Shown: piece after piece, positions 3,569-60,236 of the stretch
How the letters are laid out: every line of letters starts with the position of its first letter
Numbering within the stretch: the stretch's first letter is position 1
Assembly (NCBI RefSeq): GCF_000219725.1
Contig: NC_015732.1
Location: forward strand, 1,860,001 to 1,924,000
DNA from: Gracilinema caldarium DSM 7334
Lineage (GTDB): Bacteria > Spirochaetota > Spirochaetia > Treponematales > Breznakiellaceae
DNA length: 64,000 nt
Reading direction: 5' to 3'
Made by a program: the position numbers and the translations under genes
Notes under the pieces: generated by a model
The model's input: only the letters and a program-made list of their open reading frames with translations
Told to the model about the DNA's origin: nothing
Database searches by the model: none

Positions 3569-4842
3569 AAATTAAAGCGGTATCTTTTAGGGAGGGGGCC
3601 AGTGCCTTCTTTTTTGATGACCAGCGGGCCATTAAGGCCGGGGCAGGTCACGATGGGTTTACCTATACGGGGAAACCCATTACGCCGGGCTTTGTACGGA
3701 TTCGCCAGCCCGGCAAGGTAATCTGTGTTACCCTGGAGGTCGAAAACGGCCGCTTTGCCTATGGGGATTGTGCGGCGGTTCAATATTCGGGGGCTGGAGG
3801 CCGGGATCCTCTGCTTGACCCGGAAAAGTATATCCCCTTCCTGGAAAAGCAGGTAAAGCCGGTGCTGGAGGGAATGGAACTGGATTCCTTCCGCCGTTGT
3901 GCCCAGCTTATCGATGACCTGCGCATTCCGGACCCCCTCTCTGAACAGCCACATCAGCCTAAAATACTTCATACAGCCCTGCGCTACGGAATCACCCAGG
4001 CATTGCTCTATGCCCGGGCCGAAGCGGCGGGCAAAATTCCCGCAGAAATTATCGCCGAAGAATGGAACCTGCCCCTCATCGCCAAGCCGGTGCCTGTGTT
4101 CGGACAGACCGGGGACGACCGCTATTCCAATGCGGACAAGATGATCCTAAAGGGGGTAGACGCCCTGCCCCACGGACTCATCAATAATGTTGATGAAAAG
4201 CTGGGCCGCCAGGGGGAAAAACTTCGGGAATACCTGCGCTGGCTTTCCCGGCGTATTCAGGACTTACGGATGACCGAAGAATACAGGCCAGCCCTTCATG
4301 TGGATGTCTACGGCACCATCGGACAGATTTTTAACAATGATCCGGTCCGGGTAGCTGACTATGTGGCATCTCTGGAAAAGGATGCCAGCCCCTTTGCCCT
4401 GTACATCGAAGGGCCGGTAGACCTGGAACACCGGGAACGGCAGATTGAAGGACTCGCCGCAATTACCAGACAGCTAGAAAAGCTGGGTTCGGGGGTAAAA
4501 ATCGTGGCCGACGAATGGTGCAATACCCTGCAGGACATAAAGGACTTTGCGGATGCCAAAAGCTGTCACATGATCCAGATTAAAACCCCGGATTTGGGGG
4601 GCCTCCAGGATATTGTAGATGCGGTGCTCTATTGCAAAAAGACCGGCGTAGAGGCCTACCAGGGAGGAACCTGCAACGAAACGGACCTCTCGGCCCGGGC
4701 CTGTGTTCACCTGGCCATGGCAAGCCGCCCCGAACGGATGCTCGCGAAGCCCGGCATGGGTTTTGATGAAGGTTTTTGTATCGTGACCAATGAAATGGCC
4801 CGAATCTGTTCCACCTTTGAGTTAAGGAGCCATCATGCCTAA
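3565..4842 (+). CDS. mal: Methylaspartate ammonia-lyase
   Basis: The enzyme removes ammonia from L-threo-3-methylaspartate to give mesaconate, the second step of the methylaspartate route of glutamate fermentation. It belongs to the enolase superfamily. All residues expected from the Clostridium tetanomorphum enzyme are present at a constant offset of +9: Gln181, His203, the Mg ligands Asp247, Glu282 and Asp316, and the catalytic Lys340 in IQIKTPDLG. The length is 425 residues (about 413 in Clostridium). It overlaps glmE by 4 bases and the next gene by 8. Later pathway genes (mesaconate hydratase, citramalate lyase) are not in the window. Confidence 0.95.
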   Translation: MKIKAVSFREGASAFFFDDQRAIKAGAGHDGFTYTGKPITPGFVRIRQPGKVICVTLEVENGRFAYGDCAAVQYSGAGGRDPLLDPEKYIPFLEKQVKPVLEGMELDSFRRCAQLIDDLRIPDPLSEQPHQPKILHTALRYGITQALLYARAEAAGKIPAEIIAEEWNLPLIAKPVPVFGQTGDDRYSNADKMILKGVDALPHGLINNVDEKLGRQGEKLREYLRWLSRRIQDLRMTEEYRPALHVDVYGTIGQIFNNDPVRVADYVASLEKDASPFALYIEGPVDLEHRERQIEGLAAITRQLEKLGSGVKIVADEWCNTLQDIKDFADAKSCHMIQIKTPDLGGLQDIVDAVLYCKKTGVEAYQGGTCNETDLSARACVHLAMASRPERMLAKPGMGFDEGFCIVTNEMARICSTFELRSHHA

Positions 4843-6232
4843 TCAAGAATTACGGGTCCTGTCCCCCACCGCAATCCTGGGCTACGGTTTCCCTGAAGAA
4901 TCCTTTAAGCGGGCCCTGGACCGGAAGCCCCATGTCATCGCCGTCGATGCGGGGTCCAGCGACCCGGGACCCTACTACCTGGGCAGCGGCAAGGCCTTTA
5001 CGAACCGGGCCTTTGTAAAACGGGACCTGCGCTACATGCTCACAGCGGGAAGAAAACTGAATATTCCCGTCATTGTGGGCACCGCCGGAGGAAGCGGAGC
5101 AGAGCCGCACCTGCAATGGTGTTATGACATCATTATGGAAATTGCCAGGGAAGAAGGGCTTTCCTTTAAAATGGCGGTCATCCCCAGCGATGTTTCTAAA
5201 GAAGTGGTCCGTAAGGCAATCCGTGCAGGCACCATAGAAAGCCTGTCCTTTGTGCCGCCCCTCATCGAAGAAGCCCTGGATGCCACCACTCACCTGGTAG
5301 CCCAGCTTGGCCCCGAGCCGCTCGTAGAAGCCCTGCGGCAGGGAGCTGATGTGGTCCTGGCAGGCCGCTGTTATGATCCGGCCAATTTTGCAGCCCTTCC
5401 CCTGCTTCTGGGCTACGATGAAGGCCTGGCCATTCACATGGGTAAAATTCTTGAGTGCGGGGCCATTGCGGCAAGTCCCGGCTCCGGGGCCGATTGCGCC
5501 TTTGCCACCCTGACCGACCATTCCTTTATACTGGAAGCCCCGAACCCGAAGCGGCAATTTACCATTGCCTCTGCGGCGGCCCATACCCTCTATGAAAAAA
5601 GTAACCCCTACGAATTACCCGGTCCGGGCGGAATATTAGACCTGCGGCACTGCAGTTTTACCGACATCGGCAACGGCCGGGTCGAAGTACAGGGAAGCCG
5701 CCATATCAGGACTGAGCCCTATAAGGTTAAACTGGAAGGAGCCCGGCCGGTGGGCTACCGAAGCATCAGCATCGCCGGAGTCAGGGATCCCATCATGATC
5801 GCCTCTATCGACCAGATTTTGGAACAGGTCAGCGCTCAGGTGCGGAGCATGGGTTCGGAAAACCGAGGCCAAGTCTTTTTCCATGTCTACGGCCGGGATG
5901 GGGTTATGGGAAGCGGAGAAATCAGGCTGAAAACCCAATGGCAGAGCCAAAAACCCTACGAACTGGGTATTGTTATAGAATCGGTGGCCCCAACCCAGGA
6001 AGAAGCGGATACCCTTACCAGCGTAACCCGTTCGACCCTTTTGCATTACGGCTACGAAGGCCGTATTTCTACCGCCGGTAACCTGGCCTTTCCCTTCTCG
6101 CCCTCGGATATCAGCATGGGAACGGTCTATGAGTTTTCGGTGTACCACCTCATGCCCATCGAAGACCCGGTACAGTTCCCCGGAAGCGAGGGCAGAAAAA
6201 TGCTCACCGTAGATAAAGGAAGGATCCTATGA
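4835..6232 (+). CDS. AtuA-family (DUF1446) protein in the methylaspartate operon
   Basis: The N-terminal half matches the acyclic terpene utilisation AtuA/DUF1446 family: an N-terminal GYGFPEESF segment, a DAGSSDPGPYYLGSG loop, GTAGGSG, and a LAGRCYDPA motif around residue 180. The biochemical role of this family is not settled. It has 465 residues and no signal peptide or membrane segment, so it should be cytoplasmic. It overlaps mal by 8 bases and the DUF4387 gene by 4 (ATGA), so production is probably matched to both. From context it should act on a product of the methylaspartate pathway, perhaps mesaconate or a derivative; that is inference. Terpene use is unlikely here since no other atu genes are present. 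Confidence 0.85.
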   Translation: MPNQELRVLSPTAILGYGFPEESFKRALDRKPHVIAVDAGSSDPGPYYLGSGKAFTNRAFVKRDLRYMLTAGRKLNIPVIVGTAGGSGAEPHLQWCYDIIMEIAREEGLSFKMAVIPSDVSKEVVRKAIRAGTIESLSFVPPLIEEALDATTHLVAQLGPEPLVEALRQGADVVLAGRCYDPANFAALPLLLGYDEGLAIHMGKILECGAIAASPGSGADCAFATLTDHSFILEAPNPKRQFTIASAAAHTLYEKSNPYELPGPGGILDLRHCSFTDIGNGRVEVQGSRHIRTEPYKVKLEGARPVGYRSISIAGVRDPIMIASIDQILEQVSAQVRSMGSENRGQVFFHVYGRDGVMGSGEIRLKTQWQSQKPYELGIVIESVAPTQEEADTLTSVTRSTLLHYGYEGRISTAGNLAFPFSPSDISMGTVYEFSVYHLMPIEDPVQFPGSEGRKMLTVDKGRIL

Positions 6233-55772: not shown

Positions 55773-57263
55773 TTACTGTATTGCCATATACCAGAAGGAA
55801 GTTAAAAAAGTAGCCACCAAGATGGACAAAAAATTGACCATATCATTGTTCATCCAGGTAAAACCCTTAATGAGTTTGTTTTTCATGTCGCCCGTATAGG
55901 GCCGTTCAACGAGCTCTCCTGTTTCGGCGCAGCGATATTGGGCTTGTATGGTGGCCCCAAGGAATGAATCGAAAAGAGCACCCATAAAGCCACCAATGAG
56001 CACCGGTACCAAAGCTTTATGAGCCTGGAAGGGTGCAATCACAAACACCAGTATGGCAATGATCAGGGAACCCAAGAGGGATGCGGCAAAACCAAATGGG
56101 CTTACACCGCCGGAAAAGCCCGGCTCCAGGGGTTTAAAATTAATGATAGACCGGGGTTTCCCGCGATTCAGAACTCCCAATTCACTGGCCCAGGTATCAG
56201 CGGTGGCGGCAGCAAAGGATACGAGCAGTGCAATCAGAAAAAGTTGGCTTCCCGTAAAAGCATACAGAACAGAGCTCAGCATCCCTACTCCTCCATTGGC
56301 AAAAACCTGGATCGCATCCCGCCGGTCTCCCTTTTCATGGATCCTCTGTAGGCCAAGCCGTTCCTTTTGTTCTTTCCTGATACGGCTTGCCATGGTGGAA
56401 GATATAAAAAAGGCAGCTAAAACCAAGAGACCTCCCAAACCCGCACCCATATAAATAACCGTCCCCAGTCCAAGTCCTGCAAGAGCCCCTTCTGCCGTTA
56501 CTGCATGTTTATACCAGGCGGCATAAGCAGCTGCGGCGAGACAGGAAAAGGCAAAAATAAATGATGTATTCAGGGTGAGGGGTGAAATATAATAAAAATA
56601 AAGAGCTGTCCCAAGAGGTACTGTCAGGTTATCGAGTCCAAAGGGTGAGAATACTTCCAGGTAGGCCGCTACAAGACCGGTCCCGATACTACGAAGGAGC
56701 ACATTCCAAAGGGTAATCTCTGGATTAAAAGCACGGGTCATTAAAAAAACGACCAGACTGGATACGGTAAACATCGCAATGGTTCCGGCCATTGATTTTC
56801 GCCACCCAAATACATTGCCAGAAGGACTAGGTACTCCTTCCCCTACTATGGCAGCTAAGCCATCTCCCCAGCCAAGGACTAGAATAGCCGTACCGGCAGT
56901 CCACTTCGGCATGAAGTCATACCAGGATGCAAGTACCAACAGCAACAAAGACAGAGGAAAATAAACCGTCCCGTAATTATGCCGGGACGCTTCGATATTC
57001 ATTCCCTTAAATGCATTAGTCTGAATACTGATCCAGTTTAAAATGATAAAGACCGCTGGTCCAATGCTTGCGATGATTGGATTTTCTATCCAGAACATGG
57101 CAAAGAGCCACCAGTGAGAAACACCGATATGAACCAGTTTACGGCTTGTTTTCGGAGACATAGAGCCCCGCCCGGATAGTAAATTTGCCAAAGCTATGAA
57201 TATAAAGACATATACAAATGAATAAATGAGGCCTAAAAGATCTTTAAGTGGAATATTACTCAT
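55773..57263 (-). CDS. Fused phytol/dolichol-kinase-like and DUF92 (VTE6-like) membrane protein
   Basis: The N-terminal half (about residues 1-225) resembles CTP-dependent phytol/dolichol kinases (VTE5 type): RKLVHIGVSHWW, YGTVYFPLSLLLL and the nucleotide-binding LGWGDGLAAIVGE, then WRKSMAGTIAMF. The C-terminal half (about 245-496) is the DUF92/TMEM19 family (VTE6, phytyl-phosphate kinase): ATADTWASELGVL and PGFSGGVSPFG. So one polypeptide may carry out both phosphorylations from isoprenoid alcohol to diphosphate. It has about twelve to fourteen spans. I start it at the ATG 57263 behind TAGGAA; an in-frame ATG at 57302 lacks a ribosome site. It lies 93 bases after crtB. Confidence 0.82.
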   Translation of the reverse strand: MSNIPLKDLLGLIYSFVYVFIFIALANLLSGRGSMSPKTSRKLVHIGVSHWWLFAMFWIENPIIASIGPAVFIILNWISIQTNAFKGMNIEASRHNYGTVYFPLSLLLLVLASWYDFMPKWTAGTAILVLGWGDGLAAIVGEGVPSPSGNVFGWRKSMAGTIAMFTVSSLVVFLMTRAFNPEITLWNVLLRSIGTGLVAAYLEVFSPFGLDNLTVPLGTALYFYYISPLTLNTSFIFAFSCLAAAAYAAWYKHAVTAEGALAGLGLGTVIYMGAGLGGLLVLAAFFISSTMASRIRKEQKERLGLQRIHEKGDRRDAIQVFANGGVGMLSSVLYAFTGSQLFLIALLVSFAAATADTWASELGVLNRGKPRSIINFKPLEPGFSGGVSPFGFAASLLGSLIIAILVFVIAPFQAHKALVPVLIGGFMGALFDSFLGATIQAQYRCAETGELVERPYTGDMKNKLIKGFTWMNNDMVNFLSILVATFLTSFWYMAIQ

Positions 57264-57315
57264 AATAATTCCTAATATCACCATATCAAGTAGTAAAGGC
57301 AAGGCCTAGCTGCAC

Positions 57316-57335
57316 CAGGATTCAAAACAATCCTG
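57316..57335 (-). other. Hairpin between crtB and the fused kinase gene
   Basis: A 7-bp perfect stem (CAGGATT 57316-57322, AATCCTG 57329-57335) with a 6-base loop lies in the 93-base gap. No T-run follows on the minus strand, so it could reduce read-through or stabilise a processed end rather than terminate. Confidence 0.4.
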
Positions 57336-57356
57336 AATTCTAATATATTCCGTTCT

Positions 57357-58280
57357 TCATACCCGTATACCCGCAAAAAGATTTGTAAAGAACTGAAGCA
57401 GTATCCTGCCCTTGCCAGGTTTTACCTTGCGTTGAAACACCACCAGCGGGTTCTGTTCTATGGTTTTTGCAGTCCACCAGTACATGTCTGCAGCGGTTTT
57501 AATGGGAAGGCGATACCGGTAGGGGATAGAGCGGTACCCCGCAACAGCACCGATTTGCCATTGCCGGTATCTGTTCAGGTGGCCTACCAGCCATGCAGAA
57601 AACCTTTCGGGGTGATTGAATGCCCACTGGGGATCGACAATATCTTCGACTTCACCTTCCAGCGGTAAATAACGGCGGCCTAATGCGCGGTCCTCAGCCA
57701 CATCCCGGATAAAATTGATGTACTGCATCGCCCGGCCAAGCAGTTGTGCCGCTTCATAGGCCCTGTCGGGCAAGTCCATACAGCGGCTCATGAATAGCCC
57801 AATCACCTCCGCAGAACCATACATATACGAAAGACATTCTTCCAGGCTGTCATAACGGTTCTTGATGAGGTCCGCTTCCATGGCATCTAAAAAAGCCACT
57901 GTCCAGGCAGGATCGAATCCCAGTTCACGGCCCAACTCCGCATAGGCCTCGATGACGGCCTGATCTTCAGGGGCCGGCAGTCCTGTTTCAATGCCAGCTA
58001 CGGACAGTCCTGTTTCATGTTGGTGAAGATGAATACCCAGAGCTTTCTCAGCATAAGTGCGAAACCGGTAAAACCCTTCCCGATCCTGGGGCTGGGCATC
58101 GACAAAGTCATCAGCCCGGCGGACAAAGGCATAGAGGGTGAACACCCGCTCCCGGACCTGTTTTGGGAAAAAAATGCTTGAGTTAAAATAGGTTTTACTG
58201 CCCTTCTGAAAGGTAGCGCGCTGAAATGCAGCCAGTTCATCGGGGCTGATCGACCCCTTGGACACTGTGGATGCTTCCAC
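57357..58280 (-). CDS. crtB: Phytoene/squalene synthase family (CrtB-like)
   Basis: The enzyme joins two prenyl diphosphates head to head. The two aspartate-rich Mg2+ sites are visible: RRADDFVD (about residue 50) and INFIRDVAEDRALGRRYLP (about residue 195). The 307-residue length and ARMQYINF-type central region fit phytoene or dehydrosqualene synthase; which substrate (C20 or C15) cannot be told. It starts with GTG directly after the crtI stop, behind GGGAAGG. The next gene is the fused kinase that could make its substrate. Confidence 0.92.
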   Translation of the reverse strand: MEASTVSKGSISPDELAAFQRATFQKGSKTYFNSSIFFPKQVRERVFTLYAFVRRADDFVDAQPQDREGFYRFRTYAEKALGIHLHQHETGLSVAGIETGLPAPEDQAVIEAYAELGRELGFDPAWTVAFLDAMEADLIKNRYDSLEECLSYMYGSAEVIGLFMSRCMDLPDRAYEAAQLLGRAMQYINFIRDVAEDRALGRRYLPLEGEVEDIVDPQWAFNHPERFSAWLVGHLNRYRQWQIGAVAGYRSIPYRYRLPIKTAADMYWWTAKTIEQNPLVVFQRKVKPGKGRILLQFFTNLFAGIRV

Positions 58281-59774
58281 CTAAGCCTTCCCATTGAGAT
58301 AACTGGTCACTATAGGGGCTACCACCTGGGATGCAATAAAGGTCATGGGCACCCCCACACCAGGATGGGTATACTGGCCCGCAAAGAAAAGTCCCCGTAC
58401 TTTTTTGCTCCTCATGGAAGGCCTGAACACTGCGGTCTGCCACAGGGTATGGGCCATACCCAAAGCGGTACCCTTAAAGGCATGATATGATTCAGCAAAG
58501 TCCCGCTGAGAGAAGATCCGCTCCACCTGTATGTAGGGCTTTATGGTAATTCCAAGCCGCTGTTCCACATGGGCTAGGGCCTTCTCATAATAGGCCTGAC
58601 GAACATCGTCCGAATCATCCAAGCCCGGTGCAACCGGTACCAGCAGGAACAGGTTTTCCTTATCTGGTGGTGCAGCTCTACGATCGGTTTTAGAGGCCGC
58701 GGAGAGATAGAAACAGGGGTTATCCGGCCAATGGGGTCTTTTAAAGATACTGTCAAAATGAGCATCCCAATCACGGGAAAAATACAGGTTGTGATGAGCC
58801 AGTTCCGGGATTTCCCGGTTAAGCCCCAGGTAGGCAATAAACATACTGGGCGCGAGAACTGCCTTATCCCAATACGGGCGGCTATGGTTGGCATGTTCAG
58901 GATTCAGCAGGTCCCGGTCGGCATGGGCATAGTCGCCGCACATAACCGCCGCATCGGCGGTGTACTCCCGCAGTTGCCCATGTTGTTGGGCCCGGACGGT
59001 GGAAAGCCTGCCCTGTTTTTCATCAATATGCTGGACCTCGGTTCCGTATTCTATGCGGACCCCCAGTTCCTCGCAGAGTTTTACCAGGCCCTCTACGATG
59101 GCGTACATGCCGCCTTCGGGGAAATAGACCCCATCGGACAGGTCTAAATAGGACATCAGGGAATATAAGGCCGGGGCATTCGAAGGGCTTGCACCAAGAA
59201 ATACCATGGCATATTCCAGGATTTGGCGGGCTCGAACATCGGTAAAGAAGCGCCGCACATAGGGGTCCAGAGATTGGAATACATTAAGTCGTAGGCCCTC
59301 GGTCATAAGCCGCCAGTTAAGAAACTGGAAAATATGCCGGTACTCCCGATATAAAAAGTCCTCCATGGCTGTATTGTATTTGTAGCGGGAATTGGCCACA
59401 TAGGCTTCCAGCTTCTTGCCAGCGCCGGATTCGAAGCCTTCGAAGACCTTTTTTGTTGCTTCGAAATCGCTGGTAATGGTAACCGGATCCTGACCTTCGA
59501 AAAATACCTTATAGTGGGTTTTTAGTTTATTCAGCCTATAGTAGTGCTCCCGCTCTTTTCCAAAGAGGCGAAAGTAGCTATCGAAAACTTCAGGCATCAG
59601 GTACCAGGATGGACCCATATCAAAGGCAAAGCCATCCTTTTCCCACAGCCTTGCCCGGCCTCCGGGGGAATCGCATTTTTCCAGAATAGTAACCTGTAAG
59701 CCTTCTTTTGCAAGCAAAGCCGCAGTGCTCAGGCCGGCAAAGCCGGCCCCAATGACGAGAACCTGTTTTTTCAT
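58281..59774 (-). CDS. crtI: Phytoene desaturase family (CrtI/CrtN-like)
   Basis: This FAD-dependent enzyme introduces double bases into phytoene or diapophytoene. The N-terminal dinucleotide-binding motif VIGAGFAGLSTAALLAKEG is clear, followed by PGGRARLWEKDGFAFDMGP. The C-terminal signature (GLFFAGQYTHPGVGVPM) is also typical. Length 497. It adjoins crtB with no gap. Whether the product is C30 or C40 is undecided. Confidence 0.93.
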   Translation of the reverse strand: MKKQVLVIGAGFAGLSTAALLAKEGLQVTILEKCDSPGGRARLWEKDGFAFDMGPSWYLMPEVFDSYFRLFGKEREHYYRLNKLKTHYKVFFEGQDPVTITSDFEATKKVFEGFESGAGKKLEAYVANSRYKYNTAMEDFLYREYRHIFQFLNWRLMTEGLRLNVFQSLDPYVRRFFTDVRARQILEYAMVFLGASPSNAPALYSLMSYLDLSDGVYFPEGGMYAIVEGLVKLCEELGVRIEYGTEVQHIDEKQGRLSTVRAQQHGQLREYTADAAVMCGDYAHADRDLLNPEHANHSRPYWDKAVLAPSMFIAYLGLNREIPELAHHNLYFSRDWDAHFDSIFKRPHWPDNPCFYLSAASKTDRRAAPPDKENLFLLVPVAPGLDDSDDVRQAYYEKALAHVEQRLGITIKPYIQVERIFSQRDFAESYHAFKGTALGMAHTLWQTAVFRPSMRSKKVRGLFFAGQYTHPGVGVPMTFIASQVVAPIVTSYLNGKA

Positions 59775-59792: not shown

Positions 59793-60236
59793 TCAGTAGA
59801 GAATCCGTTTTAAAACCACCGGGTCGAGGCGGAAGGGGCTTCCCTGTCCCTGGCAGAAGTGGTGAACCCGTAACAGGTGCAGAGAAAGGTCCGAATAAAT
59901 AACAGAATCGGTTCCCCGCTGAACGGAAACGGCGTTTTTATGATAGAGACCGTCTCCATAGGGACAGGGAAGCCGGCCCCGGGCTTCATCGCTTTTTACA
60001 AGGTAACGGTCCTCTACGGTGATGGGCTCCCCAAGACCTTCGGCGCCCTTTCGCGCCAGGATTTCCAGCCTATCCGCCACCTGGTCAAAGTCGAGCCCCA
60101 GGGCCTTAAAAAGCTCTTCATCGGCTTCTATGATATCCGTGAGGGGCCGGGTGTCCTGACCCAAAAAACCCGTACTGGTGAGGACGCCGGCCTTCATTTT
60201 TTCATAGGCGGTCCGTTCATCAAAATTCATCTTCAT
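59793..60236 (-). CDS. Unrecognised protein between nqrF and crtI
   Basis: This 147-residue protein has no family I recognise. The N-terminal half is helical and acidic (IIEADEELFKALGLDFDQVADRLEILARKG). The C-terminal half contains LPCPYGDGLYHKNAVSV and a His-rich LHLLRVHHFCQGQG with Cys near, so metal or cofactor binding is possible but unproved. No signal or membrane segment. It starts 12 bases after nqrF behind GGGAG and ends 18 bases before crtI, suggesting one transcript. Confidence 0.75.
   Translation of the reverse strand: MKMNFDERTAYEKMKAGVLTSTGFLGQDTRPLTDIIEADEELFKALGLDFDQVADRLEILARKGAEGLGEPITVEDRYLVKSDEARGRLPCPYGDGLYHKNAVSVQRGTDSVIYSDLSLHLLRVHHFCQGQGSPFRLDPVVLKRILY

Follow-up and report, generated by a model that had tools for sequence, protein, structure and literature searches.

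A VTE5-like/DUF92 fusion gene beside crtB and crtI in a spirochaete, a putative prenol-salvage enzyme recurrently linked to carotenoid genes

Results

The crtI-crtB-fusion locus

The DNA analysed, here called the window, is a stretch of 64,000 nucleotides from Gracilinema caldarium DSM 7334, the genome of which is a single contig of 3,239,340 bases. Spirochaeta (Treponema) caldaria H1T is an obligate anaerobe from a hot-spring cyanobacterial mat (PMC3739177). In the window crtI, crtB and a gene encoding a two-domain protein are contiguous on the same strand with the fusion gene last in the run, and only weak terminator-like patterns were found between them. The features are listed below in window coordinates, A2 and A3 being the alignments of the two halves.

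58281..59774, (-): crtI, phytoene desaturase / 3,4-desaturase (CrtID); NF058655, 658.9 bits, cut-off 640
57357..58280, (-): crtB, phytoene synthase family; PF00494, E=8.4e-43
57264..57356, (-): crtB-fusion spacer, 93 bases, probable 3' scar of a deleted cruF; alignment to relatives
57270..57273, (-): AGGA, probable ribosome-binding site of the fusion gene, six bases 5' of the ATG
55773..57263, (-): fusion gene, 496 aa; proposed bifunctional prenol kinase / prenyl-phosphate kinase
56580..57263, (-): N-terminal VTE5/SEC59 (COG0170)-like half, residues 1-228; A2
56841..56867, (-): motif GDGLAAIVG, residues 133-141, invariant Asp134 and Gly141; A2
56616..56657, (-): motif E203...DNLTVP, residues 203-216, invariant Glu203, Asp211, Asn212 and Pro216; A2
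55812..56540, (-): C-terminal DUF92 / COG1836 (VTE6-like) domain, residues 242-484; PF01940, A3
56175..56198, (-): DUF92 motif DTWASELG, residues 356-363, invariant Asp356 and Gly363; A3
56091..56120, (-): DUF92 motif GFSGGVSPFG, residues 382-391; A3
55833..55847, (-): DUF92 motif NDMVN, residues 473-477, invariant Asn473, Val476 and Asn477; A3

An earlier note, made from the letters of this DNA, had described one protein joining both domains 93 bases from crtB, and both statements hold. The frame opens with the ATG at 57263, continues without interruption as far as the stop at 55773 and carries both motif sets, the VTE5-like domain being N-terminal and the DUF92 domain C-terminal, and the gap to crtB spans 57264-57356. 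Fused, stop-free orthologues in the same genus are 73-76% identical to the protein (two genomes for 73-74%), and since these relatives share the same fused frame the fusion is not an artefact. The 24-base leader of the fusion gene, ATATTAGGAATTATTATGAGTAAT, is unchanged in locus L032. A Kyte-Doolittle scan gave 11 hydrophobic segments, and the product is a real integral membrane protein.

A cruF-like gene (PF04240) lies between crtB and the fusion gene in relatives, and a search of the whole window genome returned no PF04240 match. The 93-base spacer aligns in register with the 3' end of cruF plus the fusion leader of these relatives; when the leader was excluded, a score as high was reached by 2 and 9 of 2000 shuffles against two relatives. 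The alignments are suggestive of a deletion scar in an operon that has probably lost cruF. Because the relatives keep cruF at this place, the carotenoid of the window strain may be acyclic and unhydroxylated. Positions 59793-60236, between the rnf genes and crtI, encode a 147-aa protein with 86-87% identity in relatives, for which a search of Pfam and NCBIfam gave no match.

The two halves of the protein

The C-terminal half matched PF01940 with E=3.9e-70 and 236.5 bits (cut-off 27.5) over positions 3-250 of the 251 in the profile, and carries the quoted motifs ATADTWASELGVL and PGFSGGVSPFG. All 18 invariant columns of A3 (26 sequences, the window among them) are kept. TIGR00297 scored 124.6 bits on this half, under the cut-off of 205.85. 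PF01940 equals COG1836 (PMC5898192), and it was by way of this COG that VTE6 came to be recognised (PMC9782597).

The N-terminal half, with the quoted motif LGWGDGLAAIVGE, matched no family when the window sequence was searched alone against Pfam. Along its length it can be aligned with 22 homologues from spirochaetes (A2, 23 sequences) with 13 invariant residues, and one of the 23 homologues, L042 in genome G287, matches PF01148 (E=1.3e-5, 25.6 bits, cut-off 24). The features looked for as signs of VTE5/SEC59, a GDGxAAxxG-like loop bearing a conserved Asp and, further on, an equally conserved Asp-Asn, were found in the spirochaete homologues of A2. A VTE5-like assignment is suggested by this homologue and motif evidence, less firmly than the earlier note had put it. 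The window protein retains every family-invariant residue in both halves.

PF01148 includes CDP-diacylglycerol synthases, and dolichol kinase is among the SEC59 relatives. These memberships (compare PMC5898192) give some ground for assigning the protein to another lipid: the N-terminal half would phosphorylate a long-chain polyprenol or diacylglycerol, DUF92 would be a CTP-dependent transferase, and prenyl diphosphate would not be formed. The window genome also encodes, at a second locus, another, distant VTE5-like protein (L101:6887-7480, 197 aa), which points to several roles of the superfamily there. We nevertheless regard such a function as improbable, since the pairing and repeated fusion of VTE5-type and VTE6-type domains agree with two phosphorylations in succession, and the carotenoid linkage described below suits a short-chain prenyl diphosphate. 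The L101 protein itself gave weak, short matches across many related genomes.

To our knowledge no activity is known for any close relative of the fusion protein. Neither the whole protein nor the N-half profile retrieved a relative in sequence searches of the PDB, and the AlphaFold model, made from a three-sequence alignment, had a mean pLDDT of 48, too low for the model to be of use. A common origin of the two halves was considered and dropped, the hhalign probability of 30% between the N-half and C-half profiles being too weak to claim it. A scan of viral contigs gave no match, and the sole plasmid match by tblastn was a DUF92 fragment in Thermomicrobium without crt genes nearby.

Fused and split forms in Spirochaetia

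The query was matched in 151 of 385 Spirochaetia genomes, with both halves in most, and the VTE5-like and DUF92 domains are mostly encoded by two adjacent genes. These split pairs have the same domains in the same order as the window fusion, to which they are about 24-49% identical outside its family, but they are two genes, and many lie in genomes without crtB and in another context (DUF2207, groEL). The latter arrangement is that of family f12, in which a DUF2207 gene and groEL flank the pair (DUF2207/VTE5-like/DUF92 order in L044, L045, L046, L048, L050, L051, L053 and others), and in which genomes with the pair are mostly without crtB. Fusions in one frame were present in families f1, f2, f3, f4, f8, f16, f51 and f79.

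In the N-half tree the window genome (G000) clusters with G372, G262, G349, G324 and G367 (97/97), while the fused G287 pairs with the split G361, and at least three changes between fused and split states are needed. A single origin of the fusion is disfavoured, as one fused clade is rejected by this tree (p-AU 0.033); the C-half tree is compatible with a single fused clade (p 0.141). Two or three fusions, or a fusion plus a fission, would be the likely though unproved history.

In G262, of a sister genus, a frameshift in the linker (L037:809-836) splits the fusion into two frames; it is possibly a real fission, or possibly an assembly error since this genome is a draft. In G031 the VTE5-like half survives as a remnant of 80 codons immediately 3' of crtB (L031:1465-1665), a decaying copy of the crtB-adjacent arrangement. 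These two cases, the first with its reservation, and the probable loss of cruF from the window operon itself are what could be expected if the fusion were a membrane protein that is in decay, or has no catalytic role, and has been retained together with crtB. That is very hard to believe for the window protein, the frame of which is full-length with all invariant residues intact, and the same-genus orthologues of which are stop-free at the identities given above.

Association with carotenoid genes

Within the order of the window organism the pair or fusion occurred in 13 of 394 genomes, and a PF00494 protein (the crtB family) in 13 of 294, one of them under the cut-off. Ten of the 13 genomes with the pair also have crtB, and the pair is found in about 3 of 281 crtB-less genomes. 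Fisher's test gave p of about 7e-14 when genomes were counted and 5e-8 when genera were, values that serve as a guide only, since the test treats the smaller sample as one set, the identity of both samples is unproved and the genomes are related. Of the three genomes with the pair and no listed PF00494 protein, two, G349 and G334, have a crtI above the family cut-off, and the third, G367, has no crtI above it. The same-genus genome G379 is without the pair, without PF00494 and without an above-cut-off crtI. Inversely, G063, G416 and G031 are crtB genomes of the order without an intact pair.

The earlier note had proposed a search for similar fusions beside crt genes, and these were found in G372, G381 and G287 and, frameshifted, in G262. 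The gene order is crtI-crtB-cruF-fusion in G372 and G381; G262 shares it apart from an inserted GH18 gene, and both the window and G287 have crtI-crtB-fusion. G337 has crtI-crtB-cruF-VTE5 reaching the contig end, and G361 has crtI-crtB-VTE5-DUF92 as four separate genes. In two families outside the order, represented by G664 (L138) and G643 (L139), crtB-cruF is convergent with a split VTE5-DUF92 pair. The crtI tree has two lineages, one containing the window and the other G287, G031 and G361; the pair is linked to each of them. The pair tracks carotenoid genes within the order; its adjacency to crtB takes at least three forms and involves two crtI/crtB lineages, and we regard the link as real.

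Elsewhere in the class, G130, G200, G221 and G252 have both the pair and crtB, unlinked. In the phylum sample 9 of 21 DUF92 genomes had PF00494, a weak association (p=0.017), and the weakness is explained by family f12, which mostly carries the pair without crtB. The basic role of the module is therefore independent of carotenoids; judged from this distribution, the core role of the pair is broader and the enzyme is not carotenoid-specific by origin.

The same distribution raises the question whether the pair performs general prenol salvage for all sinks (undecaprenyl phosphate, a menaquinone-like product and carotenoids), the adjacency to crtB being mainly operon history. The wide occurrence of the pair in Spirochaetia, mostly without crtB in f12, agrees with this, as does a MenA-like UbiA protein in the window genome. 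We hold it to be rather unlikely as an account of the fusion, because few genomes of the order other than those with carotenoid genes have the pair, and because the adjacency recurs in several gene orders and involves both crtI lineages. A supply of quinone in particular, as the earlier note had suggested beside carotenoids, is not specifically supported; the one MenA-like UbiA protein is encoded far from the fusion locus.

Discussion

Relation to known systems

The domains and the fusion of COG0170 with COG1836 are already known; what is new is the recurrent carotenoid linkage and the bacterial fused form. In Methanosarcina a SEC59-like N-terminal domain joined to COG1836 was proposed in 2015 to be an isoprenoid-pathway kinase (PMC5898192). 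The protein in question, Mbar_A3310 of Methanosarcina barkeri, carries both domains on a single chain in the order seen here (PMC5898192), but it is archaeal, and it is likened to the window fusion by description. The conserved context reported for the COG1836 group is uppS, not crt genes (PMC5898192), and in the open-licence literature no paper was found that links DUF92 to carotenoid gene clusters. In plants and cyanobacteria the same domain families form a two-step route, VTE5 being the phytol kinase and VTE6 the phytyl-phosphate kinase; there they are separate proteins which take phytol from chlorophyll to tocopherol and phylloquinone (PMC9782597, PMC10849223). The window organism, unlike these hosts, is a non-photosynthetic anaerobe with crtB and crtI beside the fusion gene.

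Proposed function

The reading we favour, with somewhat more confidence than doubt, is that the fusion would be a single-chain, CTP-using salvage enzyme converting prenols to prenyl diphosphates and recruited to feed carotenogenesis. The N-terminal half would phosphorylate a free isoprenoid alcohol with CTP to the monophosphate, and the DUF92 half would add the second phosphate to give the prenyl diphosphate, which would enter the pool drawn on by the neighbouring CrtB and CrtI, CrtB using GGPP if this is formed. The kinase chemistry, the CTP donor, the substrate and the order of the steps are inferred by analogy with VTE5/VTE6 and SEC59. In favour of the reading as a whole, the C-terminal half is PF01940, an N-half homologue matches PF01148, the invariant residues are intact and the pair co-occurs with crtB. 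Geranylgeraniol would be the most likely alcohol and farnesol a possible one, although the identity of the substrate (farnesol, geranylgeraniol or another) is a guess, as is channelling of the monophosphate in the fusion. Candidate sources of the alcohol are endogenous hydrolysis of GGPP or FPP, or alcohols released in the cyanobacterial mat. The kinase pair may be an old and general spirochaete module for prenol salvage, recruited several times to carotenoid loci and fused several times.

Of the earlier proposal that prenols are recycled for carotenoids, the carotenoid side gained support, as the crt linkage recurs in other families and in a second crtI/crtB lineage, but the pair is common without crtB. 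A stricter version, in which the bifunctional fusion converts free geranylgeraniol, or farnesol, into its diphosphate specifically for carotenoids in anaerobic spirochaetes, the alcohol possibly coming from phototrophic mats, is conceivable and put forward tentatively.

This stricter version would amount to a prenol-to-carotenoid salvage route in non-photosynthetic bacteria. A fused enzyme beside pigment genes would provide one gene for the entire route from alcohol to diphosphate, and a cultivable non-photosynthetic host would offer a colour read-out for it. It would also explain many of the DUF92 pairs of spirochaetes that now have no assigned function.

The metabolic setting of the genome

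IspH is present in the window genome, and the MEP pathway is therefore probably in use. There are two polyprenyl synthase genes, neither above a GGPP-synthase cut-off. With IspH and two polyprenyl synthases present carotenoids need no salvage, and prenol salvage would add to isoprenoid synthesis, not replace it; salvage as the sole isoprenoid source is ruled out by the same genes.

At another place in the window, positions 4835-6232 encode a protein of the AtuA family (acyclic terpene utilisation, PF07287), near a MutL-family gene at 721-2127. These AtuA/MutL-family genes are probably a cluster of the glutamate mutase type and not one for terpene use.
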